A DNA stretch of 64,000 nucleotides, taken from NCBI RefSeq assembly GCF_009664085.1, contig NZ_CP039268.1, forward strand, positions 2,771,001 to 2,835,000, in the 5' to 3' direction. This DNA comes from Thermochromatium tepidum ATCC 43061. Its GTDB lineage: Bacteria > Pseudomonadota > Gammaproteobacteria > Chromatiales > Chromatiaceae. How positions within the stretch are numbered: position 1 is the stretch's first letter; the number at the start of each line of letters is the position of its first letter. The translations under genes and the position numbers were made by a program. Positions 5,359 through 52,272 of the stretch are shown piece by piece. The notes beneath the pieces were generated by a model that was not told the origin of the DNA, made no database searches, and saw only the letters and a program-made list of their open reading frames with translations.

Positions 5359-6335
5359 TCGTCGTGGAACAGCCTGGGCTTTACACCACCCTACAGGATC
5401 AGGGGCGCCCGGGGCTCCAGCACCTGGGGATCACCCCAGGTGGGGCGATGGATGGCTATGCGGCCTGGGTCGCCAATCGTCTGGTCGGGAATCCGGCCAC
5501 GGCGGCGGTATTGGAGATCACCCTGATGGGCCCGAGGCTCGTCGTTGAACGGGGGAGCTGGATGGCGCTCACCGGTGCGGACCTCTCCGCCACACTCGAT
5601 GGGGAGGAGCTGCCGACCTGGTGTCCGGTCTGGGTACCCGCAGGGGCGAGGCTCAATTTCGGAGAGGCGCGGCGCGGTTGCCGCGCCTATCTGGCGCTCG
5701 GCGGTGGTTTTATGGTCGATGCGATCCTCGGCAGTCGTGCTACAGATGTCCGTGCTGGCTTCGGCGGTTTGGATGGTCGACCAGTGCGGCGCGGTGACCA
5801 TCTGCCCCTGGGGCCGAGCCCCTGGCCGGCACCGCGGATGCCTGCCCGGCCCTATGCGCCATCCTGGCGCGTGAACTGGATCCATGGCCTGGCGCTTGAG
5901 CCCCCCATCCGTCTGCGTCTGGTGCCAGACCATGACTGGTGGGCGCTGCCAAGCCAGGGGCGCGCTGACTTGGAGTCTGGGGTCTATCGCATAGATCCGG
6001 CGGCCGATCGCATGGGGTTGCGTCTCCAGGGGCCGGCACTGACCCTCCCTGAGGCCGGCGCACGGGTGTCGGCCGGTGTCACCCATGGCACCCTACAGTT
6101 ACCGCCCGATGGACAGCCGATCCTGTTGGGGGTTGACCGCCAGACCGTGGGCGGTTATCCCGTCCTGGGGACGGTGGCGAGTGTCGATCATCCCTATTTG
6201 GCCCATCTGAAACCCGGCGATACCGTGCGGTTCGAGCCGATCACGGTGGCGCGCGCTCAGGCCCTGTATCGGCGCTCGCTCGCCGCGCTCCAACGTTTAG
6301 AGCTGGCCCTGGAGTCGTATCTACCGCCCACCTAG
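5355..6335 (+). CDS. pxpC: 5-oxoprolinase subunit PxpC (biotin-dependent carboxyltransferase family)
   Basis: A 326-residue protein of the PxpC/KipA (AHS2) family, recognisable from VEQPGLYTTLQDQGRPG at the N-terminus, GAMDGYAAWVANRLVGN, and RMGLRLQGPAL then GTLQLPPDGQPILL towards the C-terminus. It partners PxpB in 5-oxoprolinase. Despite the family name it has no biotin site. The start is fixed by the 4-base overlap with pxpB. Confidence 0.93.
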   Translation: MIVVEQPGLYTTLQDQGRPGLQHLGITPGGAMDGYAAWVANRLVGNPATAAVLEITLMGPRLVVERGSWMALTGADLSATLDGEELPTWCPVWVPAGARLNFGEARRGCRAYLALGGGFMVDAILGSRATDVRAGFGGLDGRPVRRGDHLPLGPSPWPAPRMPARPYAPSWRVNWIHGLALEPPIRLRLVPDHDWWALPSQGRADLESGVYRIDPAADRMGLRLQGPALTLPEAGARVSAGVTHGTLQLPPDGQPILLGVDRQTVGGYPVLGTVASVDHPYLAHLKPGDTVRFEPITVARAQALYRRSLAALQRLELALESYLPPT

Positions 6336-6355
6336 ACCTAAAACGCATCGCCGTC

Positions 6356-7150
6356 ATGCCGACCGACACCGACTACTGCATCGATCTCAATGTCGATATC
6401 GGCGAGGGGTTTGGCCCCTGGCGCCTGGGGCAGGACGCCGCGGTGCTCGAGTGGGTCACCTCGGCCAACATCGCCTGCGGCTGTCATGCTGGGGATCCGG
6501 ATGTGATGGCAGAGACGGTCCAACTCGCCCTGGCGCATGGTGTGGCCCTGGGGGCCCATCCCTCGCTCCCGGATCGCCAAGGATTCGGGCGTCGGACCAT
6601 GGGCTTGGCCCCCAAGGAGCTGGAGCATCTGGTGCTCTACCAGCTCGGTGCATTGGAGGCCTTTGTCCGTACCGCCGGGGGGCACCTGGCGCACGTCAAG
6701 CCCCACGGGGCCCTTTACCATCAGGCCGCAGCCGACCCCGAGCAGGCCCAGGCCATCGCCACGGCGGTGCGCGCCTTCGATCCATCCCTGATCCTGATTG
6801 GGCCACCTGGCTCGGCGCTCCTCCATGCCGCCGCCGCCGCCGGACTCGGATACGCATGCGAGGGCTTCGCCGATCGTCGTTACGAGCCCGATGGGACCCT
6901 GACCCCCCGCCGGCATCCCCAGTCCCTGATCCAGGATCCAGCCGAGGCGCTGTCCCAGGCGCTCCGGCTCATCGTGCACGGCGAGGTCATCGCCCGCGAT
7001 GGGACCCTGGTCAAGCTACACGTCGATACCCTCTGCATTCACGGCGACAGCCCCCAGGCGCCTGCATACGCGCGTGCCCTGCGTCAGGGACTGGGCGCCC
7101 AGGGGATCGGGTTCCGTCCGGTCGCAGGACCCAGGGCGCGGCGACCCTGA
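6356..7150 (+). CDS. pxpA: 5-oxoprolinase subunit PxpA (LamB/YcsF family)
   Basis: A 264-residue protein of the LamB/YcsF family with the motifs DLNVDIGEGFGPW, ANIACGCHAGDP, GAHPSLPDRQGFGRR, HVKPHGALYH and EGFADRRYEPDGTL. It is the third component of ATP-dependent 5-oxoprolinase, which recycles pyroglutamate in the cytoplasm. The gene starts 20 bases after pxpC and closes the operon. Confidence 0.94.
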   Translation: MPTDTDYCIDLNVDIGEGFGPWRLGQDAAVLEWVTSANIACGCHAGDPDVMAETVQLALAHGVALGAHPSLPDRQGFGRRTMGLAPKELEHLVLYQLGALEAFVRTAGGHLAHVKPHGALYHQAAADPEQAQAIATAVRAFDPSLILIGPPGSALLHAAAAAGLGYACEGFADRRYEPDGTLTPRRHPQSLIQDPAEALSQALRLIVHGEVIARDGTLVKLHVDTLCIHGDSPQAPAYARALRQGLGAQGIGFRPVAGPRARRP

Positions 7151-7342
7151 TCGATCCGGGATGGGCGCCCCCTGTTGGTGGGAGATCCCAGACCGGATGG
7201 GCCCTGGGCGGTCGGATCGGTGGCCCGCACCAAGACTGGGCTATATAGCATCGAGCACCCAGGGTGCGGGACGTTGATTCCAATCCGAGCGGTCGCATAT
7301 GCGAGGCCTAGAACATCACTCAAGAACGCGGAGCCAGGAGTC

Positions 7343-8788
<1,446 letters not shown>

Positions 8789-8812
8789 GCACGGTGTTGA
8801 ACCGCACCGGGT

Positions 8813-8850
8813 GCAAAGGATCGAGACGCCGTGTGCTGGGCGTCCTTTGC
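8813..8850 (+). promoter_or_regulatory. Stem-loop in the sufB-sufC spacer
   Basis: The 116-base gap between sufB and sufC holds nested inverted repeats: GCAAAGGA (8813-8820) with TCCTTTGC (8843-8850), and inside them GACGCC (8825-8830) with GGCGTC (8839-8844). An alternative outer pairing is AACCGCA (8800-8806) with TGCGGTT (8848-8854). No U-run follows, so it is not a classical terminator. It may tune sufB to sufC expression or protect the transcript end; this role is inference. Confidence 0.5.
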
Positions 8851-8904
8851 GGTTTGAGCCTCTCATGCCTGGTGCCCGTCGAATTGATTGCTGGAGAAGC
8901 TGTG

Positions 8905-9657
8905 ATGCTGTCTGTCAAGGGCCTGCGGGCCAACGTGGGTGATCAAGAGATCCTCAAGGGGCTGGATCTAGAGGTCGGGTCGGGCGAGGTCCATGCCATC
9001 ATGGGGCCGAACGGCTCGGGCAAGAGCACCCTGTCCCACGTCTTGGCGGGACGCGAGGGCTATCGGGTCACCGCCGGATCCGTGACCTTCGTGGGACAGG
9101 ACCTGCTCGCGCTCGAACCCGAGGAGCGGGCCCGGCTCGGACTCTTTCTGGCCTTTCAGTACCCGGTCGAGCTGCCGGGCGTCAACAACACCGCCTTCCT
9201 CAAGGCCGCGCTCAACAGCCTGCGCAAGGCGCGCGGCGAGCCCGAACTCGACGCCGTTGCCTTTTTGCGTCTGATCAAGGACAAGCTCAGGGTCCTGCAT
9301 CTCGACGAATCCCTGCTCAAACGCCCGGTCAATGTCGGTTTTTCGGGGGGCGAAAAGAAGCGCAACGAGATCTTCCAGATGGCGCTCTTGGAACCCAGGC
9401 TTGCCATCCTCGACGAGACCGACTCGGGGCTCGACATCGACGCCCTGCGCGGGGTGGCCGAGGGCATCAATGCCCTGCGCTCGCCCGAGCGCTCCATGAT
9501 CCTGGTCACCCACTATCAGCGTCTGCTCGACTACATCCAGCCGGACTATGTGCACGTCCTGGCGCAGGGTCGCATCATCCGCTCGGGTGGCAAGGAACTG
9601 GCGCTGGAGCTGGAAGAGAAGGGCTACGGCTGGATCGACGCGGAGCTGGCCGCATGA
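8905..9657 (+). CDS. sufC: Fe-S assembly ATPase SufC
   Basis: A 250-residue ABC-type ATPase with Walker A GPNGSGKST (about 33-41), ABC signature FSGGEKKR, Walker B LAILDETDSGLD and the switch histidine (ILVTHYQRLL). SufC binds SufB and SufD and drives their rearrangement during cluster assembly. It starts at ATG 8905 (a GTG lies one codon upstream) and overlaps sufD by ATGA. Confidence 0.97.
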   Translation: MLSVKGLRANVGDQEILKGLDLEVGSGEVHAIMGPNGSGKSTLSHVLAGREGYRVTAGSVTFVGQDLLALEPEERARLGLFLAFQYPVELPGVNNTAFLKAALNSLRKARGEPELDAVAFLRLIKDKLRVLHLDESLLKRPVNVGFSGGEKKRNEIFQMALLEPRLAILDETDSGLDIDALRGVAEGINALRSPERSMILVTHYQRLLDYIQPDYVHVLAQGRIIRSGGKELALELEEKGYGWIDAELAA

Positions 9658-11018
9658 ACGCCCCCTTGGCTCAGGGTCTCGAACACTGGTTGCCGGCGCC
9701 GGATGCAGGCCCGGACTGGCTCAAGGAGCGTCGCCAGCAGGCGCGTGCCTGCTTGAGTGCCCAGGCGCTGCCGCATTCCAAACAGGAGGCCTGGCGCTAC
9801 ACCAGCCTCAAGGGTCTGCTCGAACAGCGGTTCCGGGCCATCGACGCGCCGCCGAGCGCGGTTCGGCCCGAGGACCTCGCGGCGGTGTTGATCCCGGGCC
9901 TCGACGCCCATCGCGTCGTGCTGGTCAATGGCCGTTTCGCCCCCGAGCTCTCGGCCCTGGATGAGCTTCCGGACGGGGCGCGGGTTGGCGGACTGCGCGA
10001 CTGGCTCGGGCGCGATCCCGAATCCCTGCGCGATCGGCTCGATGCGGTGCGCGGTGAATCCAACGCCTACTTCGCCCTGCTCAATACCGCCGGACTCGAC
10101 GATGGTCTGGTGGTATGGCTGGGTGCCGGGGTGCGGCTTGAGCGCCCGCTCGAACTCATCCAGCTCTCGGTCGGGCTGGATGAGCCGCGCGTCGCCCAGC
10201 CGCGCCATCTGGTGCAGCTCGAGGCCGGTGCCCAGGCGACCCTGATCGAACGCTATGTCGGCCTGGGCGCCTCACCCTACTGCACCAATGCGGTCATAGA
10301 GGTCGCGCTCGGGCGCGCGGCCCGACTCAGACACGAACGGTTACAGATGGAGGGGCACAACGCCTTCCATCTCGCTGGTGTTTATGTGGTCCAGGACGCC
10401 GACAGCCACTACGCGGGTCTCCACATCGGTCTGGGCGCCCGCTGGGCGCGCACCGAGCTTAACACCCGTTTTCGGGGCGAGCATGCTGAGGCCGTGTTGC
10501 AGGGGCTCTATCTGGCCGGCGATGGTCAGTTGCTCGACTACCACCTCGACATCGAGCACGCCGTCCCACACTGTCGCAGCGCGGAGGGCTTCAAGGGGCT
10601 GCTCATCGGGCAGGGGCGGGCGGTGTTCGATGGACGGGTGCTGGTCGCCAAGGGCGCCCAAGGGAGCGATGCGGCCATGTCCAACCGCAATCTGATACTC
10701 TCCGAGCAGGCCGAGATCGACACCAAACCCCAGCTCGAGATCCAGGCCGATGACGTCAGGTGCAGTCATGGCACCACGGTCGGCCAGCTCGAGCCCGAGC
10801 TGCTGTTTTATCTGCGCTCGCGCGGCATCGACGCGGCCCAGGCGCAGCGGATGCTATGTCTCGGCTTTGCGGGTGAGATCATCGACCAGTTGGGGAGCGA
10901 GGCCGTGCGTGGGCAGGTGGCCGCGGTGATCGAACAACGGCTGGATGAGGGGAGTGGCTCAGGCGCATCCGACGATGGGGCCTTTGAGCCTGCGCCTGAT
11001 GTTTCGCGGAGGACGTGA
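9654..11018 (+). CDS. sufD: Fe-S cluster assembly subunit SufD
   Basis: A 454-residue SufD, paralogous to SufB, with HSKQEAWRYTSLKGL near the N-terminus and the C-terminal beta-helix signature (SEQAEIDTKPQLEIQADDVRCSHGTTVGQLEPELLFYLRSRGI, shown here as one family landmark ending near residue 395). It forms the SufBC2D complex. The overlap with sufC and a TGATG junction with sufT indicate tight translational coupling. Confidence 0.96.
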   Translation: MNAPLAQGLEHWLPAPDAGPDWLKERRQQARACLSAQALPHSKQEAWRYTSLKGLLEQRFRAIDAPPSAVRPEDLAAVLIPGLDAHRVVLVNGRFAPELSALDELPDGARVGGLRDWLGRDPESLRDRLDAVRGESNAYFALLNTAGLDDGLVVWLGAGVRLERPLELIQLSVGLDEPRVAQPRHLVQLEAGAQATLIERYVGLGASPYCTNAVIEVALGRAARLRHERLQMEGHNAFHLAGVYVVQDADSHYAGLHIGLGARWARTELNTRFRGEHAEAVLQGLYLAGDGQLLDYHLDIEHAVPHCRSAEGFKGLLIGQGRAVFDGRVLVAKGAQGSDAAMSNRNLILSEQAEIDTKPQLEIQADDVRCSHGTTVGQLEPELLFYLRSRGIDAAQAQRMLCLGFAGEIIDQLGSEAVRGQVAAVIEQRLDEGSGSGASDDGAFEPAPDVSRRT

Positions 11019-11446
11019 TGAACAGACTGGCCCGCTTTGCCGGTTTCGGCCGAGATCAACAAAGACCGGACGCCGCGGAGAGAGAAGAACGGGCGGCACT
11101 GGAGGCCGGAGACCAGGAGGTCCCAGTGGCGCGCCTGGACCCCGAGGAACTGCGCGAGCCGATCATCGCCGCGCTGCGCCGCGTCCATGACCCCGAGATC
11201 CCGATCAATCTCTATGACCTGGGCCTGATCTATCGCATCGACATCGACAACAAGGGCGATGTGGCGATCGAGATGACCCTGACCGCCCCCGGCTGTCCAG
11301 TCGCCGGGATGATGCCATTGATGGTCAAGCGCGCCGTGGAACAGGTCGAGGGTGTCGGGCAGGTCAGGGTTGAACTGGTCTGGGATCCACCCTGGAGCGC
11401 CGACAACATGAGCGACGAGGCGCGCTTGCAGCTTGGGTTGATGTAA
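11018..11446 (+). CDS. sufT: SufT-like DUF59 Fe-S maturation protein
   Basis: A 142-residue protein with a variable, charged N-terminus and a DUF59/MIP18 domain (HDPEIPINLYDLGLIYRI, then MTLTAPGCPVAGMMP, and VWDPPWSADNMSDEAR near the end). DUF59 proteins assist Fe-S delivery to targets. ATG 11018 follows GGAGGA and its first base is the last base of the sufD stop; a GTG one codon earlier is possible. There is no sufS or sufE/U next to it. Confidence 0.9.
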   Translation: MNRLARFAGFGRDQQRPDAAEREERAALEAGDQEVPVARLDPEELREPIIAALRRVHDPEIPINLYDLGLIYRIDIDNKGDVAIEMTLTAPGCPVAGMMPLMVKRAVEQVEGVGQVRVELVWDPPWSADNMSDEARLQLGLM

Positions 11447-11477
11447 GTCGCCTCAGACACCCGCCAAATAGATTAAT

Positions 11478-11616
11478 CCGGCCCTTTAAGATGTGGATCG
11501 CGCCTTACGGCGCCCCTACAGAGCCGCCGACCCGTTTTGCCGAGACCCACCTTGACAGGGCCAGGGCTTGAAATCGCCCTAGCGTTCACGGACCGCTCAA
11601 GGCGTGTGGCAGCCTT
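11478..11616. repeat. Dispersed intergenic repeat A, copy 1
   Basis: About 139 bases, from the CCGGCCCTTTAAGATG motif to GCAGCCTT, recur with mismatches and small indels at 39699-39840. Both copies contain the small palindrome GCGCCTTACGGCGC (11500-11513) and a conserved GCTTGAAATCG block. This copy sits between sufT and the defence genes, at the left edge of the accessory island. No convincing ORF is present. The family is unknown to me. Confidence 0.75.
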
Positions 11617-11708
11617 TTGGCCCGGTAACTATTCAGGTTCTCGGTCCAACCAAGGTGAGTGCTGGCTATTGTAGATACCGTCTTCCCGTCCTCCTCTCTT
11701 CTTGTCCC

Positions 11709-14700
11709 TCAGCCCACCTTCCAGCCCGCCTTGATCTTGCCCAGGATGCCATTGACCCGTTCGATGACTTCCTGCTCGACTTTGCCCGCTTCGCCGATCT
11801 CCACCGTCACCCGGATGCGCAGAGGATGGCCCGCAGTGGCCTCGCGCAGCGCGTCAATGTGGTCGGCAAGGTCCTGAACCTCGTGCGTCTGGAGATCCGC
11901 GCTGGCCGCCTTCGATCCGTAGTGCTTGGGCGGAGGCGGATCTTTGTCCTCGCTCTTGCGCGCCACGATCTTGACCGCCGCCGCACCGCCCAGATCACAG
12001 GGCCAGGGGCCCGAGTCGAGGGTCCGTTCGATCAGCCCCAGCCGGAAGGCCTCATCGAGTGCCGCGGCGACACGCGTCCAAGGCAGCACTTTGTCCCCCT
12101 TCGACGAGAGCGCTGCATGAATGAGATGCGCGTTGGTCGCATCGTTTTGCCACGCTGATGGCAGCTGCGCCGGCAACACATCAACGCTCGCGAGCGGAAG
12201 TGGCGGCGCGAAAAGCTGTGCCGAGTCGTTCACGAATCCCGCGGGCACGTCTTCGGCCAGCACGCTCACCGTCCCGTTCACCAACCAGACGCGGCCGCTC
12301 TTGACGGCGGCCGCCACTGCGTCGGTGATCGCCTGCGCCGTGGCCTCGGGAATCAACAGGTTCTCGGTATAGCCACCCTTGTCGACCTCGACGAAGTGCT
12401 TGCCTGAGAAGTAGGCCGAAAGATCGGCCAGGGTGAGAGGCTCCTTGTCCCAAAGACACGGCAGCCGCCCAGGGGCCAGCAGTTGCGGATCCAGTTCGGA
12501 CAGTACGGCCGCATCAGACAGCACCACTTCAAGGCTCAGGTCGTTGACGGCGTTGTCGTCCGGACGGGACATCCAGAACGTGCGCGTCGGTTTGTCGGCA
12601 CGCGTCACCCGCAGCACGAACTCGCCCGCCTCGCAGCCCTGCAACAGCGTCTCCAGGATCGCCGCCCGGTTCAGCATCTTGGGCAACTTGGCCGTCGCCG
12701 CAAAAGCGCCGACCAGATCCTTCACGAAGCGCGCCTTGTCCCCATCCGCCCACAAATCGAACGGCCCGCCAGGCAGCAGCGCCTCGGCGTTGACCGCGGT
12801 GCTCTCGATCCGCAGTCGCTTGTCCGCGACCATCTTGGGGAAGAGCGGGTCGTTGTCGACGTTGATCCGGTATGCGGCCACTTCGTTGCTGTCGTTGACC
12901 GTGACGGCGATGCAGTAGGCCATGATGACCTGCGACCCCATCTCCCCACGGGCTGCGCGAATATTGGCTTCCAGGCGCGCGGTGGTTGCGGTGTCGATGT
13001 CGCTGCGCTCCTTGAGCATCTCGCGTACCTTCTCCCAGCCCAACAGGTCACGCACCTTCTCGCGGGCGACGTCGATGCCGTCCTTGGACGGTACCGCCAG
13101 CACGACGGCGTTACGGTTCTTCGCACGCGGCCTGTCCGGGCCCGTCGTCTCGTCAATGAAGCGCCTGGCCTCGGCGCCCGGCTTGCCATTGCACGCAGCC
13201 TTGGGGCCGAGCACGGCGTAGTGGAAGTCTTCGTCGTCCTCGATGTCAGCTGGACGCGCCGGCAGCACGTGGACTTTGGCACCCAGCGTGCGAGCGCCTT
13301 CAGCGAGCTGTTTCGCCTTGGCGATTTCGGCCTCCAGAACTTCTTCCACGGCCGTCGAGCTCACGTTCTGGCGCGCGTCGTGGTGCATCTGCTTCAGGTT
13401 CGGCTTGGACCCGAGGCGCCATACCTTGGGCAGTCCACCTTCACGGTCGCCGGTGAACGTGTCATCGAGATACCAAGAGGCATCTGACCAACGCGAAAGC
13501 CCCTTGTCCAACTCGATGCGGTCCGGGGATCCGACGCCAATCAATACCTTCAGCTCGCGCGTGGTCACGCGCTGACCAATGGGCTGCGAGTGGAGGAACG
13601 TTGCCATCACCGCTTGCTCGATCTCACGGTGCTGGACACCCAGCAGACCGTCCTGTGCCTTGCGTGCATGGGCAAGTTCGGCCTCCAGGATGGCCGTCCA
13701 GTTCTGCCGGCGGCCTTCGTACTGCTCCAGCTGCGCCACGTTGGCCAGCTCGCGCGCGGCCACACTGAGCCCTTCCGACTTCGGTTCCACCAGGAAGATC
13801 TGGGCGCCGATCAGCGGTTGCTGGTCCCACTTCACCGCGTCGCGCAGTGCAGAAGCCAGGGTCTTGATGATGCCTCGCGTCTGCTGGAACCCTTCGAGCT
13901 GCGTCCACTTCTGGTACAGGGTCTCGATCAAGGCCGGGTGGAAGGGGTAGGCGTCGGTGTATCGCTTCTCCTCAGCCGCGCGGTTCTTCGCCGTGTACTC
14001 GTCGATGCTCTGAACGCCATTGAGTGCGCCAAAGACCTGGCTGGGCCACTGCGTGCGGTCGGTGTAGCTCTCCAGCTTGAGCAGCCGGCGCCGAAGGATC
14101 TCGGGCACGTCCTGGCTTTCGACGGGCTGGATGCCTTCATCGGCCACGCGTTTGAACTCGTCGTAGAGTTCCTTGCTGATCTGTTTGCCGAGCTCGTCCA
14201 TCTTGCCGGGGTCCGATGCCAGCAACGAGGCCACTAGGCAGCACTGCGGTACCTTGGCGACGGCCTGGGTCAGGCTGTGCATGAACTCGCGCACGCGGCC
14301 AATCCACGCGGGATCGGTATCTGCCATCACACGGACGAACCACAGCACCTCGTCGAACAGGATCAGCACGCCGGCCCCATCCTTGCGCGCGAGCTTGAGC
14401 AGATCCTCCATCACCCCGGTGGCCGGCGGAGTCGCGCGTTCTGTGCCGTCATCCTTCAGCAACTTCATGCCCGCAGTGCCGGCCAGCTGCCAGGCAATCG
14501 CACTCCACGGCATCTTGACCGTCGCCACGCTGCCATCGGGCGCAGTCACTTCCATGCCCTTCTCGGCATCCAGGCGGTCGAACACCACGGCGGCCACGCG
14601 CGCCTTGGGCAGCCCGCCTTCGAGTGCGCAGTGCGCCTTGAATTGCTGCACCGCCGGGATGTCAGGCAGGCTCGCGGGATCGCGCACCAAGTGCACCAGC

Positions 14701-14990
14701 GTGATCAAGGAGTGGGTCTTGCCGCCGCCGAAGGTCATGTGCAACTGGCGCACGGCCTTCTCGGACTTGCCCGAAAGGCGCCAGGTGACATCGCGCGCCA
14801 GATCGCGCAGCTTGACTGTGGGGTACGTGAGCGCGAAGAACTCCTTCGCATCGTGATAGACGCCGGGGTTGCGCCCCATCACCACGTCGTACAAATCCGC
14901 CGCAAACTGCTTCTGCGACAGTTCTTGATTGGTGATGTCGTCGCGCAGCTGCACGACCTGGTGCCAGGGTTTGGTGGTGGTCTTGGCCAT
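11709..14990 (-). CDS. DUF499-family P-loop ATPase (defence module)
   Basis: A 1093-residue cytoplasmic ATPase of the DUF499 / COG1483 family. The N-terminal AAA+-like domain has Walker A TFGGGKTHS (about 86-94) and Walker B LILFDE (209-214); a long helical and mixed C-terminal region follows. DUF499 ATPases occur with DUF1156 methyltransferases and SNF2 helicases in bacterial defence islands, and distantly resemble the BrxC/PglY ATPases of BREX. It lies 26 bases after the methyltransferase gene on the same strand and is the last gene of the operon. Its molecular role is unproven. It appears intact. Confidence 0.88.
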   Translation of the reverse strand: MAKTTTKPWHQVVQLRDDITNQELSQKQFAADLYDVVMGRNPGVYHDAKEFFALTYPTVKLRDLARDVTWRLSGKSEKAVRQLHMTFGGGKTHSLITLVHLVRDPASLPDIPAVQQFKAHCALEGGLPKARVAAVVFDRLDAEKGMEVTAPDGSVATVKMPWSAIAWQLAGTAGMKLLKDDGTERATPPATGVMEDLLKLARKDGAGVLILFDEVLWFVRVMADTDPAWIGRVREFMHSLTQAVAKVPQCCLVASLLASDPGKMDELGKQISKELYDEFKRVADEGIQPVESQDVPEILRRRLLKLESYTDRTQWPSQVFGALNGVQSIDEYTAKNRAAEEKRYTDAYPFHPALIETLYQKWTQLEGFQQTRGIIKTLASALRDAVKWDQQPLIGAQIFLVEPKSEGLSVAARELANVAQLEQYEGRRQNWTAILEAELAHARKAQDGLLGVQHREIEQAVMATFLHSQPIGQRVTTRELKVLIGVGSPDRIELDKGLSRWSDASWYLDDTFTGDREGGLPKVWRLGSKPNLKQMHHDARQNVSSTAVEEVLEAEIAKAKQLAEGARTLGAKVHVLPARPADIEDDEDFHYAVLGPKAACNGKPGAEARRFIDETTGPDRPRAKNRNAVVLAVPSKDGIDVAREKVRDLLGWEKVREMLKERSDIDTATTARLEANIRAARGEMGSQVIMAYCIAVTVNDSNEVAAYRINVDNDPLFPKMVADKRLRIESTAVNAEALLPGGPFDLWADGDKARFVKDLVGAFAATAKLPKMLNRAAILETLLQGCEAGEFVLRVTRADKPTRTFWMSRPDDNAVNDLSLEVVLSDAAVLSELDPQLLAPGRLPCLWDKEPLTLADLSAYFSGKHFVEVDKGGYTENLLIPEATAQAITDAVAAAVKSGRVWLVNGTVSVLAEDVPAGFVNDSAQLFAPPLPLASVDVLPAQLPSAWQNDATNAHLIHAALSSKGDKVLPWTRVAAALDEAFRLGLIERTLDSGPWPCDLGGAAAVKIVARKSEDKDPPPPKHYGSKAASADLQTHEVQDLADHIDALREATAGHPLRIRVTVEIGEAGKVEQEVIERVNGILGKIKAGWKVG

Positions 14991-15016
14991 CGTTGTTCTC
15001 CGGATCCTGCTTCTCT

Positions 15017-18000
15017 TTACTCAAGCCCGAGCGGCGCTTGTGCGGTGCTACCCACAGAGCGCAGGTAGTTCTGCAAGCGCTCCAGGATCGAGCACTCGTC
15101 TGTGCGGCCTTCAGCGCGACTCTTCTCGATCAAGGCCTGAATCAACTGCGCGAACACCTGGCTGCGGCGCAGCGCGCGGCTGTCGAGGTAGTCGTTGACC
15201 TTGACGACATCGCCGGCCACCCACAGCTGCATCAGCTTGTGCACCTGGTCGATCAGCGGAATCGCGCGTCCACTCGCGGTCTCCACACCCAGCGAGCGGT
15301 GCTTGCGGGCGCGCCAGTCCTTGAGCTTGTACTTGCCACCACCGCCGGTTGCTGCGGCTTCCTCGGCATCGCCGTCCTCGTCGTCGTCCGCGGGCTCCGC
15401 GTCCTCGGCTTGGGATCCCCCACCACTCTTGGCCAGCAGCTCATATTGATCGGCCAGCTCGCGCTCTGACAGCCCGCAAGACACGGCGTAGAGGATGCAC
15501 GGGCCGGCAGGGGCCTCCTTGAGGCCGAAATCATTGCGATGCAGCAGGTAGTACGTCGTCACGTCGTCCAGCGGGTGGTCGCCAGGCGCGGGCTCTGATT
15601 GCCCGTGCGAGAGCACGCGACCGACGACGAAATCCACCACGATGCGGCGCACGTGACCAAGGAAGTCGGTGACCGACATCAGCGCCCCAGGTTCGGACGC
15701 CTTCTTGACTGCCGGATAGCGGCTGTATGACTCCAATGCCGGTCCAGTGGCGGCCCAGATGAAGTCAGGGCCGCGGATGCCGGCATCCCAGAAGTCGCGC
15801 AGCTTGGTCGTGATGCTCGACTCCATCTCCTTGAGCACCTGGGTGTCCCATCCGGCGCGGGCCAGCGGGTCGCGCTTCCTGCAGACCAGCCACACCGAGG
15901 AGGCGAGGGCGGCGGAGGCCATCGCCCGCATCCGGTTGCCCATCTCGGTCTGGATGGGCCAGCTGCCATCGACGACGAAACCAGCCTGGATGATCGCTGA
16001 GACCAGCGTTTCCCAGGCGTCGGGCTGCTTGTGGGCGAAGACGATCACCAGCCGCCCCTCGGGCCTGAGCGCGGCATGGCAGGCCTTGAAGGCGCGTGCC
16101 ATGCCGGCTTCGTAGTTGCGCTTGGACGCCTCGCGATCCCCGCCAAAGCGCGAGGCGTCGTCGATCAGCTCGCCGTCGTTGGCATCGTGGTTCCACTTGG
16201 GCGCAAGCGGCGCCGCAAAGGCGGCGTCGAACTCTGGCGACACGCCCCAGAGCGTGCGGCGCAGCCAGACGTAGAAGAAGTCCATCAAGTCGGAGTACGG
16301 AATGGCATCGTAATACGGCGGGTCGGTGACCACCACGTCGAACACACCGTCGAGGATCTGAGTCGCTGATCTTTGCAACGTTTGCGCCTGCCCGCATGCG
16401 GCCGAAAGCCCATGTTCGATGTAACGGGCAACCCAGTCCAGCTGTGCCTGCCAGCCGCCACCAACGCCATTGATCGCTGTAAGTTCTGCGATGTCCCATA
16501 CCATCGGCAGCGCAAAGCGGGCGAAAGTATGGCCTATTTTTTCCCCTGAGTTATGCCATGTGCAGATGGCGGAGCTGTAATCTGCGGTCTTGTCGAACAA
16601 GATCGACAGGTACGCAAGTAGCGCCTCCCGCCACTCCGCCTCCGCGAAACTCAGTTCCCCAGGCACGGCGCGGATCGCCTTCACGAATACGCCTAGGGCC
16701 AGAAGCTGCCGCGGCGTGAACAGTTTGTGCCACTGATCGAGCCCGTAGCCGTCAACAGAGAATGCCCGCGCCGCTCCCGCGCCTCCCTTGGGAGTCTGTT
16801 CGTCTGGCAGTCCGAAAGGCATGTCTGCGAAGACACCCGCAAGCATCGACTCCGCTGAGCAAGCCATCTCGATCTCGTGCGCGGTGGGCCGCCGGTACTC
16901 TTTGCCTTCCGGGCCATCAACCACCACCGCGGTCATCACTGCACCCATCCGCCCGGCGCGGCCTTCCAGTCGCAGGTCTTCCATCGTCATGATCGTGCCG
17001 CAGCAGGGGCAGGTGACACCGGCGCGACTCATGGTCCCTTGCCCGAGTTTTTTGTCGTACTCCCGTTTCTGCGCAGCGTTGCCGCCTTTGACCGGAGGGT
17101 TGGGGTCGATGCCGAAGACCACGCCCGTCCCGTCCTCGCGGGGCTGCATGGTGAGCAGCACGCGCTTGTGGTCTTTCTTCGCCAGCCACCGGGTCTTGAG
17201 CAGCGGCACCTCGGCGCGGCAGCCTTTGCACCGGACGGTCCGCGCCCACAGGTAGGCCACCGTGGGCTTGGCCACCCAGCGCGGGTTGGCGGGGTTTTCC
17301 AAGTAGGCGGTATCGAAACCGGCGTTGAGCACCTCGACCTGCGGCTCGCCGTCATCGTTGATCGGCACGAGCTTCAACCCCTCACCCCCGGCCCCTCTCC
17401 CGTCTGCGGGAGAGGGGTGGATGTCCAATGGCACGACACGATAGGGCTTCAGGGTGCAATACTCGGCGTAGGTGGGATAAAAGCGCGCCAGGTCCTTGCG
17501 CGCCTCCTTGAGCACCCAGCGACCCCAGGCGCGCACGTGCCAGGCGAGGTCCGCATCGAGCTCCTCGGCCTCGACCTCGGGAGCCTCGAACAACTCGCGA
17601 TTGTCGTGCCGTGCCGCTTGCGCCTTGCCCGCCGCTTGCCGTGCGCGCCGTTCGGCGTCCTTAGGTCTTAGGCCGCGGGCCTTAAAGTATTCGGTGAGGA
17701 AGGCCACGTCTTGGAGCGCAAAATCCGGCAGCCGCCGCTTCTGTCCCGCAAGCTTCTGCGGATATTCCAGGGTGCATTTCAGGATGAACCAGGCCACCGG
17801 GTTGATGTCGATGGCGGTTACTTCACAACCTAGCCGCATCGCCTCCAGCGGGATCGCCCCGCCGCCGGCGAAGGGGTCGAGCACGCGGGGCGCGCGCCCC
17901 CCGTAGGCCTTGCGGATCTCCTGCCGGAACCAGTCCAGGTCGGGACTGGTCTCGCGCCCCCAATGCAGCACGCCACCCTCGGTCTCCCAGGCGTCGATCT

Positions 18001-18283
18001 CCTCCACCCGCCCGTTGGGCATTTTCTTTTTCTTGGTGGTCTTCTTGAGCGTTCCGCCCAGGCGCTTGAGGATTTCATCGCGCTTCTCTTTGTCGCCTGG
18101 GTCGGGCAGCAAGGTGGCGATGAGCGCCGCGCGCGAGGCCGCCAAGGGACGGCGCGCCGGCCAGATGTGAAGGGTGGAGATGTGCCCATGGCGCACATTC
18201 TTCTCGTGCACCGCGTCGATGGAGGTCTGCTTGAGCGGGAAGGCGACCTCAATCAGGCGTTTGTCGTTCAGGGGCATAAGCAT
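15017..18283 (-). CDS. DUF1156 adenine-specific DNA methyltransferase with Zn ribbon
   Basis: A 1088-residue protein of the COG1743 family. The N-terminal DUF1156 segment (KRLIEVAFPLKQTSIDAV, HIWPARRPLAASRAAL) is followed by the SAM-binding motif LDPFAGGGAIPLEAM (135-149), Zn-ribbon cysteines (CKGC near 351, CPCC near 424) and the catalytic motif TDPPYYDAIPYSD near 652. N6-adenine methylation is the expected activity. Residues of about 289-302 derive from a palindromic repeat inserted in frame (see 17378-17417). It sits between the helicase and DUF499 genes. It probably marks host DNA for the system; this role is inferred. Confidence 0.9.
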   Translation of the reverse strand: MLMPLNDKRLIEVAFPLKQTSIDAVHEKNVRHGHISTLHIWPARRPLAASRAALIATLLPDPGDKEKRDEILKRLGGTLKKTTKKKKMPNGRVEEIDAWETEGGVLHWGRETSPDLDWFRQEIRKAYGGRAPRVLDPFAGGGAIPLEAMRLGCEVTAIDINPVAWFILKCTLEYPQKLAGQKRRLPDFALQDVAFLTEYFKARGLRPKDAERRARQAAGKAQAARHDNRELFEAPEVEAEELDADLAWHVRAWGRWVLKEARKDLARFYPTYAEYCTLKPYRVVPLDIHPSPADGRGAGGEGLKLVPINDDGEPQVEVLNAGFDTAYLENPANPRWVAKPTVAYLWARTVRCKGCRAEVPLLKTRWLAKKDHKRVLLTMQPREDGTGVVFGIDPNPPVKGGNAAQKREYDKKLGQGTMSRAGVTCPCCGTIMTMEDLRLEGRAGRMGAVMTAVVVDGPEGKEYRRPTAHEIEMACSAESMLAGVFADMPFGLPDEQTPKGGAGAARAFSVDGYGLDQWHKLFTPRQLLALGVFVKAIRAVPGELSFAEAEWREALLAYLSILFDKTADYSSAICTWHNSGEKIGHTFARFALPMVWDIAELTAINGVGGGWQAQLDWVARYIEHGLSAACGQAQTLQRSATQILDGVFDVVVTDPPYYDAIPYSDLMDFFYVWLRRTLWGVSPEFDAAFAAPLAPKWNHDANDGELIDDASRFGGDREASKRNYEAGMARAFKACHAALRPEGRLVIVFAHKQPDAWETLVSAIIQAGFVVDGSWPIQTEMGNRMRAMASAALASSVWLVCRKRDPLARAGWDTQVLKEMESSITTKLRDFWDAGIRGPDFIWAATGPALESYSRYPAVKKASEPGALMSVTDFLGHVRRIVVDFVVGRVLSHGQSEPAPGDHPLDDVTTYYLLHRNDFGLKEAPAGPCILYAVSCGLSERELADQYELLAKSGGGSQAEDAEPADDDEDGDAEEAAATGGGGKYKLKDWRARKHRSLGVETASGRAIPLIDQVHKLMQLWVAGDVVKVNDYLDSRALRRSQVFAQLIQALIEKSRAEGRTDECSILERLQNYLRSVGSTAQAPLGLE
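17378..17417. repeat. REP-like palindromic repeat inside the methyltransferase gene
   Basis: The segment begins CCCTCACCCCCGGCCCCTCT and contains a perfect 11-bp stem (CCCCTCTCCCG at 17392-17402, CGGGAGAGGGG at 17407-17417) with a TCTG loop. This is the look of a widespread proteobacterial intergenic palindrome. Here it lies within the reading frame and encodes a Pro/Gly-rich stretch (SPADGRGAGGEG on the minus strand) without breaking the frame. Confidence 0.8.
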
Positions 18284-18371
18284 CTCCTAACGCCAGCTTT
18301 TCGGGCGGGTGAGGACAAAGCCGTCGTCACGCGTGATGCACTCGGGCAACTGACAACGGCGAAAGGCGGTT

Positions 18372-21300
18372 TCATTCGACGTCCTCCGATGCGTTGGCAA
18401 TGTCGCGGTACGCGATGGCCACGCTGCCCCGCTTCTTGGCGATCAGCTTGGCAAAGGGATCCTGCACCCTCAGCAGCCGTGGCTGGGCGCTACCGCAATC
18501 GAACACGGCATACAGCCAGTAGCGCTCACGCAGGATGCAGGCGCGCGCCCATTCGTTCTCGGTCAGCTCGATCTCGCCGACGCCTACACGCCCTTTGACT
18601 TCGATGCCACGCTCTTCACCCGGCCGTTTGGAGAGCAGGTCAAATCCCGGGTAGTCGGTGAGCCCAGCCAGACGGGCTTTGTCGGGCGTTGAGACGTCGC
18701 GCACGTCCGCACCCTGCGCCGATTCAAAGGCGATCGCCACTTCCATGGCGATGCGCTCGATCTCGGCGTCGCGCGCCTTGATGTCTTCGGGATCGGTAGA
18801 GGGTTGCACCAGCGCGGTGGCCAGGATTTCCACGCGGCCAGGCTGGATCAGCTCGACCTCGCGGCGCGCTTGAAGCAAGGCCTGCTCACGGCGCTGTGCG
18901 AGGCTTCTCTGCTGCGCCTTGATCCGCTCCAGCTCTGCATGGGCGGCCCGGTTGCCGTCACGGGCCTTCTCGGTGAAGCGCTTGCGCGCAGCGGCCAGCT
19001 CCGACTCCTGGTAGTCGAACGCCCGTTGCAGATACTCCCGGGTCTCCGCGAGGCGCTGGGTCGCTTTCATGCGCTGTCGCTCAGCCATCTGGCCGACGAT
19101 GCTGCGCTGGATGTGTTCCTGCGCAGCCAACCGCCACGTGTCGCTTTGGGCGAGAAACACCACGCTGCCAGGGCTGGGCTTGTCGGCGGGTTTGAGGAGC
19201 AGCAGATGCTCAACGGGCGCCTCGATCAGCCGGCCATCGGCGTATTGCTTGAGACCGACGAGGCGTTGTTCGATGACCTCAGGTTGAAGAAACGCGGGAA
19301 AGCCGGGATCCACGCCGCGCTCCACGCTGACGCGGGCGACATGGAACAGGTAGGGTGCTGCGGCGCTGACGTCTGTGAAGATGGCGCCACGCAAGGCATC
19401 GTGACGGGCGCGCTCAATGGCTATGGCCGAGAGACGCTCGAAGACGGGCTCACCCGGATGCAGAAAGACAGCATCACGCCCGTCGTCCGGGCGGTACACG
19501 GTGAAGCGGTTGCGCGCCGACTCTGGGTAGGCCTCGAGCAGCGGGAGGAGGCTGTCGAGGCCCCCCCGCTTGCGTGGCCGGATGAAGAAGACACCATCGA
19601 GATCGCCGACAAGGTCGATGCCAATGACCGGCGCGGCGTGCTCGAGATACCGCCGAACGTACCCCGGCAAAAGCCGGCGCATCTCCTCGATGGCCATGGA
19701 CTCGCGCAGTGGGGGCAGGCCCATGCGGACGTCGCCGCCTTTGCCGTAAATGGTCGCCTCGCGTGCTTCGAGGGCCTTGATCTGCTCGGGTGTAAGCTGG
19801 CCGGCGAGTTCGAGCGCCTTCTTGTCCGCTTCGTCATCCGACTCGATGGCCCGCTGGATGTACTCGGTGATGGCCATGCCCTCGAAGATGCGGCCGACCA
19901 CGTCGAACACCTTGTCCGAGCCGAGCTGCTTGCGGATCTCCTCCAGCTTGTCCAGCAGGGTCTTGATGACCCGGCCTTCTCGCGTCTTGCCCGCAACGAG
20001 GTTGATGATGGCAACGCGGTCTCGCTTCTGGCCGTAGCGGTGAATCCGCCCCATGCGCTGTTCCAGACGCGCCGGGTTCCAGGGCACGTCGTAGTTGATC
20101 AGGATCCAGCAGAACTGCAGGTTGATGCCCTCGGCCGCCGCGTCGGTGCCGATGAAGAAGCGCGCTCCCTTGCCCTCGGCGTTGTGCGGGCGGCGGAAGC
20201 GCTCGACCTGAGCGTCGCGCTCCTCGAAACCCAGGCCGCCGTGGATGTAGGCCACCTGGTCGGCGTAGCCCATGCCTTCGAGGCGTCGAACGAGAAATTC
20301 CAGCGTGTCGCGGTGCTCGGTGTAGATGATGACCTTCTGGTCACGATATTGCGGCGAGCGCAGCAGTTCCGCCATCCGCTCGAACTTTGACTCCTGTCCG
20401 CTGGCGTGGACCGCCTCGGCCAGTGCGATCAGCTCCTGCACCTGGTTGCGCTCGTCGATGAGCTCCGCGAGGCTGGTGGCGATGAAGGCGCCCAGCGCCT
20501 CCGCCTCGCTCTCCTCGTGCTCTTCGACGCCTGCCGATTCGGTTTCCTCATCGGCGGTCTTCGCGGCTAGCACGTCCACCAGCTTTCCTTCGCGCACCTT
20601 GCGGTTCAGGCGCTCTTGCTGGCTGCGCAGCTCTTCATCGGGCACCCGACCGGATTGGATGTCATCGATCAAAGCGTCGAGCTTGGCCAGGCGGTTGCGG
20701 AAGGAGCAGAGCAGCGCCCAGGTGCTGCTGGCCATACGCCGCTGGAACACGGTCATGGCGAACCGTGCAGCCTGACGGTTCAAGAGCCGCGCCTGGTTGT
20801 AGTAGTGGCGGATGTACGTCGTCGTGCGGTCGTAGAGTGCCTGTTCGCTGACTTCCCCCTGGGAGAGGTCGTAGCTCACGGTGTCGCAAAGGCGCTCGGG
20901 GTAAAGGGCCTTGCCACGGAGATCGACCATCTCCTCCTTGACGCGGCGGATGAAGTAGCGGTCGCGGGACTCACGCGGGAACTTGGCAAACGCCGTCTCG
21001 GTGCTGAACAGCTCGGGCTCCAGCAGCCGCCACAGACAGTAGTACGGGTATTCCTTGCCCATGTGGGGGGTCGCAGTGAGCAGCAGGAGGTGGTGCGCGG
21101 CCCAGGGCATGCGCCAGTCCTCCGGCAGCTCGCGCACGCCAGCGATTGCCTCGGCAAGGCGGTAGCGGTCCGTCGCCCGGAACGTCCCGTCCAGATCGCG
21201 GTTCGCGGAGAGCTTGTGCGCCTCGTCGAACACGACCAGGTCGTAGGGCACGACCTGAGGATCGCGTAGGGCGTTGAACAGCCGGGCGCTGCGCAGGCTG

Positions 21301-21959
21301 TCGATGCTCACCACGACGAGATCGCTGCCGGCGCCGACAAACGGGTTGCCGTCCTTGGTGTCGCCGCCGGTCACAATCTTGAACTGCAGCTGGAACAGCT
21401 TGTGCAGTTCGCGGTACCAGTTGCCCACCAGGCCGGCAGGCGCCACCACCATGACACGGCGGATCGTCCTGCGCGACAGGCTCTCGCGGACGTAGAGGCC
21501 GGTCATGATTGTCTTGCCGGCGCCAGCGTCATCGGCCAGCAGGAAGCGCAGGCGATGCTGAGGCAGCATGCGTTGGTAGACCGCAATCCGCTGATGGGGC
21601 AGCGGGTCGATTTCGCTGATCTCGGTCGCGAACGCCGGGTTGAACAGATGCCCGTAGGACAGTCGCTCGCCCTCGACCAGCACGCGCAGCGCGTTCGCGT
21701 CCCCCAGGAAATCGAGCCGGGGCGTCGCATCGCCCTTGTCGGAAGCCGCCGTACTCCCGCTGGGCTCCCCCGCCTCCGCCAAATGTCCGCCTGACCGACC
21801 CGCAAGCGCCTGCAACTTGGCCTGCCCCATCGCGGAGGGCTTGGATTGACCGTTCTCCCACCGATTCAGCGTGACGAACGAGACGCCCAACAGCTCGGCG
21901 AACTGCTGCTGAGTGAGGCTCAGTGTTTTGCGAAGCTGTCGGATCTCGTGGGGGGTCAT
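18372..21959 (-). CDS. HTH-SNF2 helicase-DUF3883 fusion protein
   Basis: A 1195-residue protein. An XRE-type helix-turn-helix occupies about 1-52 (LSLTQQQFAELLGVSFVTLNRWENG). The SNF2/SF2 helicase follows with motif I DDAGAGKT (144-151), DEAH box (245-248), TATPHMGKE, and motifs V/VI (TDAAAEGINLQ, LEQRMGRIHRYGQ). A C-terminal DUF3883-like domain (about 1085-1170, YPGFDLLSK, RGIEVKGR) has an E-x-K nuclease-like core. It is the first gene of the three-gene operon. The fused DNA-binding domain and the palindrome just upstream suggest autoregulation. DISARM DrmD is a distant relative, but drmA, drmB and drmC are absent here. Confidence 0.9.
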   Translation of the reverse strand: MTPHEIRQLRKTLSLTQQQFAELLGVSFVTLNRWENGQSKPSAMGQAKLQALAGRSGGHLAEAGEPSGSTAASDKGDATPRLDFLGDANALRVLVEGERLSYGHLFNPAFATEISEIDPLPHQRIAVYQRMLPQHRLRFLLADDAGAGKTIMTGLYVRESLSRRTIRRVMVVAPAGLVGNWYRELHKLFQLQFKIVTGGDTKDGNPFVGAGSDLVVVSIDSLRSARLFNALRDPQVVPYDLVVFDEAHKLSANRDLDGTFRATDRYRLAEAIAGVRELPEDWRMPWAAHHLLLLTATPHMGKEYPYYCLWRLLEPELFSTETAFAKFPRESRDRYFIRRVKEEMVDLRGKALYPERLCDTVSYDLSQGEVSEQALYDRTTTYIRHYYNQARLLNRQAARFAMTVFQRRMASSTWALLCSFRNRLAKLDALIDDIQSGRVPDEELRSQQERLNRKVREGKLVDVLAAKTADEETESAGVEEHEESEAEALGAFIATSLAELIDERNQVQELIALAEAVHASGQESKFERMAELLRSPQYRDQKVIIYTEHRDTLEFLVRRLEGMGYADQVAYIHGGLGFEERDAQVERFRRPHNAEGKGARFFIGTDAAAEGINLQFCWILINYDVPWNPARLEQRMGRIHRYGQKRDRVAIINLVAGKTREGRVIKTLLDKLEEIRKQLGSDKVFDVVGRIFEGMAITEYIQRAIESDDEADKKALELAGQLTPEQIKALEAREATIYGKGGDVRMGLPPLRESMAIEEMRRLLPGYVRRYLEHAAPVIGIDLVGDLDGVFFIRPRKRGGLDSLLPLLEAYPESARNRFTVYRPDDGRDAVFLHPGEPVFERLSAIAIERARHDALRGAIFTDVSAAAPYLFHVARVSVERGVDPGFPAFLQPEVIEQRLVGLKQYADGRLIEAPVEHLLLLKPADKPSPGSVVFLAQSDTWRLAAQEHIQRSIVGQMAERQRMKATQRLAETREYLQRAFDYQESELAAARKRFTEKARDGNRAAHAELERIKAQQRSLAQRREQALLQARREVELIQPGRVEILATALVQPSTDPEDIKARDAEIERIAMEVAIAFESAQGADVRDVSTPDKARLAGLTDYPGFDLLSKRPGEERGIEVKGRVGVGEIELTENEWARACILRERYWLYAVFDCGSAQPRLLRVQDPFAKLIAKKRGSVAIAYRDIANASEDVE

Positions 21960-21984: not shown

Positions 21985-22006
21985 CTTTATATCACGCGAT
22001 ATAAAG
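21985..22006 (-). promoter_or_regulatory. Palindromic operator/promoter of the defence operon
   Basis: A perfect inverted repeat, CTTTATATC-N4-GATATAAAG, lies 26 bases upstream of the helicase start codon. On the minus strand it overlaps a minus-10-like TATAAA (21991-21986), so a bound repressor would block transcription. It is AT-rich in a GC-rich setting and has the size expected for a dimeric XRE regulator. The HTH domain encoded by the first gene is the obvious candidate ligand (inference). No clear Shine-Dalgarno sequence follows. Confidence 0.7.
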
Positions 22007-22091
22007 AGGTTGAAAGCACACGCGATCCTTGGCTTCCTCTTGCCAGAATGGCCTTAGGGGCTCTCTGCCCCCTGCTCGCAAGCATAGGATC

Positions 22092-22276
22092 CATGACTCT
22101 GACTCTGTCGCCCGAGCAGTTGCAGGCGCTGTTGCGTTCTCTGCCGGATGACGATGGCGCTGCGGTCGTTCGCGTTGCGCGATGGCTGGGCCGGGGTGAG
22201 TCTGGGTTGTGCCACCATGTCCATCGGCGACACCGATCCTGCCGACGTCCTGCGGCGGGCTGACCCGGTGCGCGGC
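22092..22276 (+). pseudogene. Remnant of a GGDEF diguanylate cyclase
   Basis: Two pieces in different frames match the part of a GGDEF domain that follows the signature: LRSLPDDDGAAVVRVARWL (near 22122-22180), then VSLGCATMSIGDTDPADVL plus RRAD (22196-22264). Between and after them the frame is broken, and the usual ALYxAK end is replaced by the start of the IS200/IS605-like element. The upstream part of the gene is gone; the defence operon lies there instead. This looks like a gene destroyed when the island arrived. Confidence 0.5.
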
Positions 22277-22514
22277 AAGCCTTGGCCTGAAGGCCAAGGA
22301 AGGATCGCGCGGACGGCGCAGCCGTCCTACAATCATGTTGTCGCCGATACCCAAGGCGACCGACGGCGGGGCACGCCAGAAGTCACGCCTGGGGAGAGAC
22401 GAGCAGCGGTTGCGCACTCGGCCCAGGAACCCATCGAAGCGACTTAAGGGCGGCTCAATGCCGCGCCTGAAGCGCCGTAGGAATCTCCGGACAGAAGGCC
22501 GGGGAGGACGTCAA
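22277..22514. mobile_element. IS200/IS605-like non-autonomous element (right part = repeat C copy 1)
   Basis: The left end carries a 9-bp perfect hairpin (CCTTGGCCT 22280-22288, AGGCCAAGG 22291-22299), a second hairpin (GGACGGC-GCA-GCCGTCC, 22311-22327) and a minus-10-like TACAAT (22328-22333). The right 110 bases (22405-22514) recur at 40131-40240 and end with a CTCCGG...GGGGAGGACGTCAA right end of the type found after tnpB genes. No transposase gene remains. The element abuts the ribosome-binding site of the MEMO1 gene. Confidence 0.6.
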
Positions 22515-22526
22515 GAGGAAACACCC

Positions 22527-39698: not shown

Positions 39699-39840
39699 CC
39701 GGCCCTTAAGATGTGGATCGCGCCTTACGGCGCCCCTAAAAAACCCGCCGACCCGTTCCTCCGAGATCCACCTTCAATACAGGGCCAGTGCTTGAAATCG
39801 TCCTATCGTTCACGGACTGCTCGATGCGTGTTGCAGCCTT
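39699..39840. repeat. Dispersed intergenic repeat A, copy 2
   Basis: It is homologous to 11478-11616, sharing a TTAAGATGTGGATCGCGCCT core, the small palindrome GCGCCTTACGGCGC, and a CTTGAAATCG block, and ending GCAGCCTT. Several mismatches and short indels separate the copies, so this repeat is older than repeat B. It has no coding potential that I can support. Confidence 0.75.
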
Positions 39841-39853
39841 CGAGCCCGAGGGT

Positions 39854-52030: not shown

Positions 52031-52172
52031 AGCGCTCCGAGTCCTCGCCGCCGTCGGAGACGACGACCTCGCTGTCTCGTGCGATCCGGGTCACTGTGGC
52101 GTAAAAGCCACGCAAATCGGCTTGAGCGACATTTTCGTCAGTCGTTGTCAATTTGCAACAAGGGAGGCGGAC

Positions 52173-52271: not shown

Positions 52272-52272
52272 G

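Follow-up and report, generated by a model that had tools for sequence, protein, structure and literature searches.

The window analysed here is a stretch of 64,000 nt of the one-contig 2.96-Mb genome of Thermochromatium tepidum ATCC 43061 (positions 2,771,001-2,835,000). On its minus strand lies an operon of three open, adjacent open reading frames (ORFs) of 1195, 1088 and 1093 codons, which encode, in this order, a helicase (hmaA, 18372..21959), a methylase (hmaB, 15017..18283) and an ATPase (hmaC, 11709..14990). We put at roughly 0.78 the probability that this is a complete, divergent restriction-modification-like operon of the Hma type, related to BREX, with a built-in repressor. The helicase begins with a helix-turn-helix (HTH) head, and HmaA very probably represses its own operon through a palindrome ahead of hmaA. 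Hma was proposed in 2021 as a system of helicase, methylase and ATPase, with 1,638 instances in 26 phyla (Payne et al., PMC8565338). Neither the class of system nor the nuclease tail nor the embedding of further genes is new; what draws interest to this operon is the proposed switch.

The HTH head of HmaA and its proposed operator

The HTH head occupies aa 6-43 of HmaA (21831..21944, minus strand; Pfam HTH_3, 42.4 bits), and we take the segment SFVTLNRWENG to be its probable recognition helix. Relatives of the operon were collected as 41 loci of one scan, with 46-92% identity of the best segment. An HTH was present at the N-terminus of HmaA in the window and in all 21 relatives that have the hmaA start in the locus, and a separate search recovered it in three further loci (L106-L108). 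Nine Hma loci without the HTH (L060, which is the canonical Hma copy of the same genome, and L096-L103) have a different N-terminus at this position. Comparison of the N-termini with canonical ones placed the HTH and a linker ahead of the shared region of HmaA.

Upstream of hmaA lies a 22-bp palindrome, CTTTATATCGCGTGATATAAAG (21985..22006, minus strand), which we propose as the HmaA operator from its conservation and from a genome pattern search. A site was accepted when it matched the 12 fixed bases with at most two mismatches within the 300 nt ahead of the hmaA start. By this measure the consensus TATATC-N4-GATATA was found in 23 of 25 HTH-headed loci, that is, in 20 of the 22 in the main set and in all three later ones (L106-L108). 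Ahead of hmaA in the HTH-less Hma loci it was found in none of nine, three of which have two-mismatch matches elsewhere. The hmaA of L009, split into two ORFs, was excluded from the HmaA tree and motif rows while its start was counted here, and L066, where only an HTH-bearing fragment remains, was excluded from the operator count. The distance from operator to hmaA start was 42-56 nt in 19 loci and 89 nt in L033. When 285-300 random 300-nt segments were drawn from each locus, none scored as well as the operator in 20 of the 22 loci. Across the 23 sites, the 12 fixed columns were 96% conserved, as compared to 47% for the flanks. A search of the whole genome (2.96 Mb) with the pattern TATATCNNGTGATATAAA, allowing up to three mismatches, returned a single place, a perfect match read once on each strand; since the reversed control pattern gave three matches, the weight of this search rests on the absence of a second operator site. 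The proposed -10 element, TATAAA (21986..21991, minus strand; 5/6 matches to TATAAT), lies inside the palindrome, and in all 23 sites the right half-site is overlapped by a hexamer that agrees with the -10 consensus at 4 or 5 of 6 positions (TATAAA in 15). These facts fit a dimeric autorepressor. The suggestion of the original prediction that the set is self-regulated thus gained support from the conservation of the operator and its link with the HTH.

We also considered an ordinary Hma operon in which the HTH head would serve only DNA targeting or structure, the palindrome being the site of another, host-encoded regulator. Defence operons can have separately encoded regulators, for example RptR of an E. 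coli defence island (PMC12255303), and two HTH-headed loci are without a clear site (three mismatches in L028, five in L029). Such a regulator is nevertheless unlikely: the site tracks the HTH through loci of several host families, as judged by record title, and is missing where the HTH is missing, and the genome holds no second site, although a host regulator acting on other genes too ought to have one. RptR itself resembles the autorepression proposed here from sequence, in that palindromes at the -10 box are bound by a repressor of the same operon, but it is a separate 9-kDa protein, whereas the proposed repressor in the window is the head of the effector itself (PMC12255303). No description of an HTH-operator switch for Hma was found in the accessible portion of the literature, which included neither the Payne 2024 preprint nor the PMC12839542 supplements, and we cannot say whether the HTH-operator pair is unpublished.

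Domain composition and conservation of the three proteins

HmaA (1195 aa; PADLOC HmaA, 524.6 bits) matched Pfam HTH_3, SNF2/ResIII, Helicase_C and NOV_C, the last of which we take to be the same as DUF3883. Walker A and DEAH motifs are present in it. Its SNF2 helicase core (aa 118-643; 20031..21608, minus strand; Pfam) has RapA as the nearest solved relative by sequence (E 3.8e-22). The NOV_C tail (aa 1067-1161; 18477..18761, minus strand; 52.8 bits) carries the motif GFD...EVK, both parts of which were invariant in 25/25 rows. A model of the tail had a mean predicted local distance difference test (pLDDT) score of 73, its first 27 residues being poor, and the top Foldseek matches were archaeal Hjc Holliday-junction resolvases (E 1.3e-3, prob 1.00, TM at most 0.62 by target). 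By motif and model, the tail is therefore predicted to be a nuclease of the PD-(D/E)XK fold, which supports the original prediction, where the DUF3883 tail was the only nuclease-like candidate. The domain was already termed a novel restriction endonuclease domain in 2013 (PMC3710099), and defence by a Snf2-nuclease of such kind was reported by Liu et al. 2024, as cited in PMC12839542.

HmaB (1088 aa; PADLOC HmaB, 420.4 bits) gave Pfam matches to methylases and to DUF1156 (aa 14-65; 18089..18244, minus strand; 64.6 bits). It has the motifs DPFAGGG and TDPPYYDA, and two C-x2-C pairs at aa 352/355 and 425/428. The DPPY motif, the name of the PADLOC model and a 2026 survey (Rakesh and Krishnan, PMC12839542) point to a predicted adenine methylase. 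A hypervariable block at aa 541-660 (16304..16663, minus strand) showed 32-51% identity in comparisons with five relatives, against mostly 70-100% elsewhere in HmaB, and a second dip was seen at aa 181-240 (31-73%); HmaA and HmaC had overall identities of 74-93% in the same five comparisons. The block at aa 541-660 is a probable fast-changing target-recognition part.

HmaC (1093 aa; PADLOC HmaC, 257.3 bits, aa 6-791) is an AAA+ ATPase without a HEPN head. Pfam recognised DUF499 at aa 158-383 only (59.2 bits), and the motifs GGGKT and DE are present. The C-terminal part was modelled with a mean pLDDT of 84, and its structure matches were weak (best E 0.048), several of them being winged-helix regulators.

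The ratio of nonsynonymous to synonymous substitution rates (dN/dS) was 0.07-0.18 in each of hmaA, hmaB and hmaC when compared with the relatives L007, L017, L018, L019 and L021, which argues that the genes are constrained and are not chance ORFs. Catalytic motifs were retained, with small variations, in 21 hmaA, 28 hmaB and 36 hmaC rows of the lineage and in nine canonical loci. Much of the original prediction is thereby borne out. The three large genes form an intact operon with ORFs exactly where it had placed them, Pfam recovered each of the domains it had claimed (HTH-SNF2-DUF3883, DUF1156 and DUF499), and the PADLOC Hma profiles and the DPPY motif agree with a defence-type module of ATPase, adenine methylase and SNF2 helicase.

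The slot between hmaA and hmaB

The junctions between the genes measure 88 nt (hmaA-hmaB) and 26 nt (hmaB-hmaC), and neither holds a further ORF. The 88-nt junction encodes FRRCQLPECITRDDGFVLTRPKSWR and a stop, and a tblastn search with it against 44 loci (E<0.01) found solely the ends of NYN genes, in L019 (1.6e-7), L024, L021, L022 and L036. The NYN gene ends just ahead of hmaB in L019, L021 and L024, like the remnant in the window, and is separated from hmaB by another gene in L022 and L036. At the DNA level, L019 aligned with the junction over 137 columns (72%, E 1e-13), the hmaB start included. From these alignments, the window copy has lost most of an NYN-domain gene that formerly lay between hmaA and hmaB, and keeps the last 25 codons and stop of that gene (18287..18364, minus strand).

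Most relatives carry genes in this slot. Among 26 relatives showing both the hmaA end and the hmaB start (L038 was dropped from 27, its hmaA 3' end not being seen), the spacer was at least 777 nt in 23, the others being L025 (495 nt), L029 (316 nt) and L034 (10 nt). Of 92 candidate ORFs, 20 from 12 loci were profiled, and the others were judged by start sequences or by equal spacer length. The slot of L007 (5227-6738; Luteimonas) holds a CD-NTase and a Cap15-type 2TM effector, a two-gene CBASS-like set, and like start sequences place the CD-NTase gene also in L008, L009, L018 and L031. HEC-07 (650.3 bits) was found in L011, the 1,637-nt spacer of which is common to L012, L013, L015 and L017. 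Other slots contain PDC-M48B (weakly matching metallo-beta-lactamase-type models) with a second protein without clear match in L006, where the ORF 6052-6729 had only a marginal PADLOC match of 15.7 bits; a YhcG nuclease in L018; NYN in L019 and L021; PDC-S31 after the NYN gene in L022, the only match of ORF 5942-6793; DUF5343 and Ymh in L028; DUF3800 in L035; DUF2971 and DUF6791/ThiF in L040; and PHP/AAA in L041. The ORF 9417-9977 of L035 had no match in either profile library. The hmaB-hmaC junction may be occupied too, by RhuM (L016), Fic (L028), an AAA ATPase (L035) or a 23S-intervening-sequence protein (L019). For accessory genes lodged between the genes of Hma operons, the name Hma-embedded candidates (HECs) is in use (PMC12988326, PMC12111858). 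The loci described here resemble those of Payne et al. 2024 in having accessory defence genes between the Hma genes, L011 with its HEC-07 included, while the window copy has lost its embedded gene. The word compact in the original prediction is therefore misleading: the junctions hold no extra ORF, but compactness is not a trait of most relatives, and in the window it followed the loss of a gene.

The scar gives some ground for a second alternative, in which the lineage would no longer be a restriction system at all and would be either a methylation or regulatory cassette or a decaying remnant lacking its effector, the NYN gene. The same genome also has, at 1.12 Mb (L062), a broken HmaA piece in a 258-codon ORF; an IS66 transposase lies about 2.6 kb away, and the stretch separating them contains a weak HmaC-like match. 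However, the three core genes are open, their motifs are conserved, dN/dS against close relatives is about 0.1 and the nuclease tail retains its D and ExK, which makes decay very improbable.

The lineage and its distribution

The operon belongs to a lineage far from the canonical Hma copies. The PADLOC profile scores of its HmaA, HmaB and HmaC are three to five times below those of L060 (1678.9, 1582.7 and 1170.9 bits), and the NCBIfam matches of the three proteins are all below cut-off. Identity over the aligned parts is 30.5% (HmaA), 31.0% (HmaB) and 26.4% (HmaC) with L060, and about 24-37% with canonical copies generally. Among the 48 rows of an HmaC tree, that of the window formed one group with those of 35 relatives (Shimodaira-Hasegawa-like approximate likelihood ratio test, SH-aLRT, 100), and the branch of this group measured 3.11 changes per column; nine canonical Hma rows adjoin this lineage and do not form one group. 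The tree was a quick one, rooted on three rows of the Type-2 BREX-related (BR) systems considered below; it carried a long-branch warning and was drawn without Type-3 BR and BrxC rows. A check of its protein rows showed no internal stop, and the HTH of this lineage was seen only in rows with the hmaA start in the locus.

The hosts of the relatives are Gamma-, Beta- and Alphaproteobacteria; record titles point to other phyla as well, although the names of metagenome-assembled genomes may be wrong. Of 398 genomes drawn evenly from the phylum, four had HmaA at E 1e-200 or better, namely the window's genome and three from one genus. Among eight genomes of the window's own genus, a full-length HmaA of the lineage was found only in the window's genome; G004 has an HTH-bearing HmaA fragment, and G003 and G005 have more distant copies (33-34% identity). 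A plasmid collection gave no match of at least 60% identity (57 records with HmaA at E 1e-50, 54 with HmaC at E 1e-30). Within the T. tepidum genome, the canonical L060 (1.55 Mb) carries an MNT-HEPN pair in its hmaB-hmaC junction, and L061 (1.73 Mb), a Type-2 BR locus, encodes a PLD helicase, DUF1156, DUF3780 and DUF499.

Relation to named systems

With Hma the operon shares three adjacent genes in the same order and profile matches to all three, the assignment being made by profile bits and not by PADLOC's own calling thresholds. Extra genes between the core genes are a further likeness (5/8 canonical plasmid copies looked at). It differs by the HTH head of HmaA, by the unaligned C-terminal part of HmaC and by the separate long HmaC branch. 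In view of the PADLOC HmaA, HmaB and HmaC matches, a new system outside the named types was rejected, and on this point the original prediction, which had placed the set outside the standard types and had itself listed profile matches to a characterised system among its grounds for refutation, was overturned.

The 2026 survey recast such loci as DUF499-centred BR systems of Types 1-3 (PMC12839542). Like Type-1 BR as described there, the operon has a DUF499 ATPase, a DUF1156 methylase with DPPY and a four-Cys element (by sequence motifs only) and a SNF2 helicase with a C-terminal PD-(D/E)XK domain, the latter predicted by motif and model; no PglZ, iSTAND or DUF3780 was seen in the locus or in six flanking ORFs scanned. 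Its ATPase, without HEPN, corresponds to one of the two Type-1 forms described. For the Type-1 helicase, the survey reports a TUDOR domain at the N-terminus and a PD-(D/E)XK nuclease at the C-terminus, the latter in 79% of taxa, and a winged HTH and an RRM are described at the C-terminus of the Type-1 DUF499 ATPase (PMC12839542). The operon of the window differs in having an HTH where TUDOR is described, and an RRM was not recovered in its HmaC model. The identification of canonical HmaA heads as TUDOR is the claim of the same survey. Because the HTH stands in place of TUDOR, we file the operon as a variant and not as a strict member of Type-1 BR. Type-2 BR (DUF499-DUF3780-DUF1156-PLD helicase, as in L061) has an ATPase and a methylase homologous to those of the window, but differs in its reverse gene order, DUF3780 and PLD helicase.

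Membership of BREX or DISARM was rejected. HmaA cross-matched DrmD (NCBIfam 323.2 bits, PADLOC 307.3), BrxHI (317.6 bits) and DrmA (185.8 bits), HmaB cross-matched PglX (38.5 bits) and HmaC cross-matched BrxC (19.1 bits). In agreement with the original prediction, no PglZ, BrxA/B/L, DrmB or DrmC was found among the matches listed for nine ORFs scanned (for HmaA, the best 25 of 54 and 25 of 28), DrmA appearing only as the HmaA cross-match. A cut-down member of either system, which these cross-matches might suggest, is hardly credible, as each scored below the Hma profile for the same protein, DrmD stayed under its NCBIfam cut-off of 610, and the six flanking ORFs gave no PglZ, BrxA/B/L or Drm family match.

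Genomic neighbourhood

By Pfam, the operon stands between Suf-type Fe-S genes and a gene of the Memo family; the six neighbouring ORFs that were scanned comprise three Suf-type genes, Memo, a molybdopterin oxidoreductase and a phosphodiesterase. Signs of a mobile context were looked for and did not appear: no Pfam match to an integrase or transposase was obtained among 16 other ORFs of the window that were scanned, and no tRNA gene was found in the window. In the genus-mates G002, G005 and G006 the memo block is reversed and comes 0.1-13.8 kb after the suf genes; the operon therefore sits at a rearrangement, and no clean empty site can be drawn. The suf segment of the window (7270-11624, 4355 bp) has a 99.98% identical second copy at about 495 kb in the same genome. 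Since that copy has the left flank seen in the genus-mates, the segment in the window is probably a recent duplicate beside the defence operon.

A dispersed repeat of about 147 bp lies at 11478-11624, ending 84 bp from the hmaC 3' end, and again at 39699-39848; it matches the genome 31 times, counting the copies in the window, and many of these matches are partial. A second dispersed repeat (22258-22515, about 260 bp) lies between the operon and the Memo gene and has 92-93% identical copies in L089 and L095. The listed start of the Memo ORF, at 22209, is probably too early. The G+C content dips to 0.56 at 52001-54000 and to 0.58 at 62001-64000, the other 2-kb steps having 0.63-0.69, and the low-G+C ORFs scanned (52263-53393, 52419-53606 and 62156-63772) had no Pfam match at E 1e-4; these two stretches are thus possible islands.

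Proposed mechanism and significance

Besides the two HTH-headed loci that lack a clear operator, several points weigh against a complete Hma-type system with a built-in repressor. The operator loci are related and are not independent samples. The half-site itself supplies the TATA, so that the -10 match is weak evidence alone; the window's own -35 candidate (TTTCAA, 22010-22015) is poor, and the mean -35 score was 3.39, as compared to 2.62 for shuffles. HmaB was termed an m5C methylase by Payne 2021 (PMC8565338), one hmaB row has DPFAGGR, one hmaC row has a gap at Walker A, and the first Cys pair is missing from 4/9 canonical HmaB rows in the alignment. No Foldseek match of the nuclease tail reached E 0.001 or better. 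Canonical HmaC alignments end by aa 805 of 1093 (among 30 of 54 records listed), and no RRM was named among the best 50 rows of structure matches of HmaC. Owing to the low profile scores, functions are carried over from distant relatives.

We infer the course of methylation, cutting and repression as follows. HmaB would methylate adenine in a host motif and so mark self, and the AAA+ ATPase HmaC would assemble or gate the complex on DNA. HmaA would travel along unmarked DNA by its SNF2 motor and cut with its PD-(D/E)XK tail. In the resting state, the HTH head of HmaA, probably as a dimer, would bind the palindrome over the -10 region of its own promoter and keep the operon low. As to the release of repression on infection, we tentatively suggest, while regarding it as rather doubtful, that HmaA is its own inducer: unmarked invading DNA would draw HmaA dimers off the operator to serve as motor and nuclease, and the operon and its embedded genes would be induced in proportion to the foreign DNA.

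Little is known of how defence operons sense infection and set their dose. In this operon a single polypeptide appears to combine repressor, motor and nuclease, together with a 22-bp site. If foreign DNA releases the repression, this would account for the silencing, until they are needed, of a costly effector and of the exchangeable partners embedded with it. The range of the Hma profiles takes in at least two very distant lineages, and both can be present in one cell. If HmaA does act as its own inducer, the HTH-headed lineage would be a fourth subtype of DUF499 systems, in which embedded genes (CBASS-like, HEC-07, NYN and others) would be swapped under a phage-responsive promoter.

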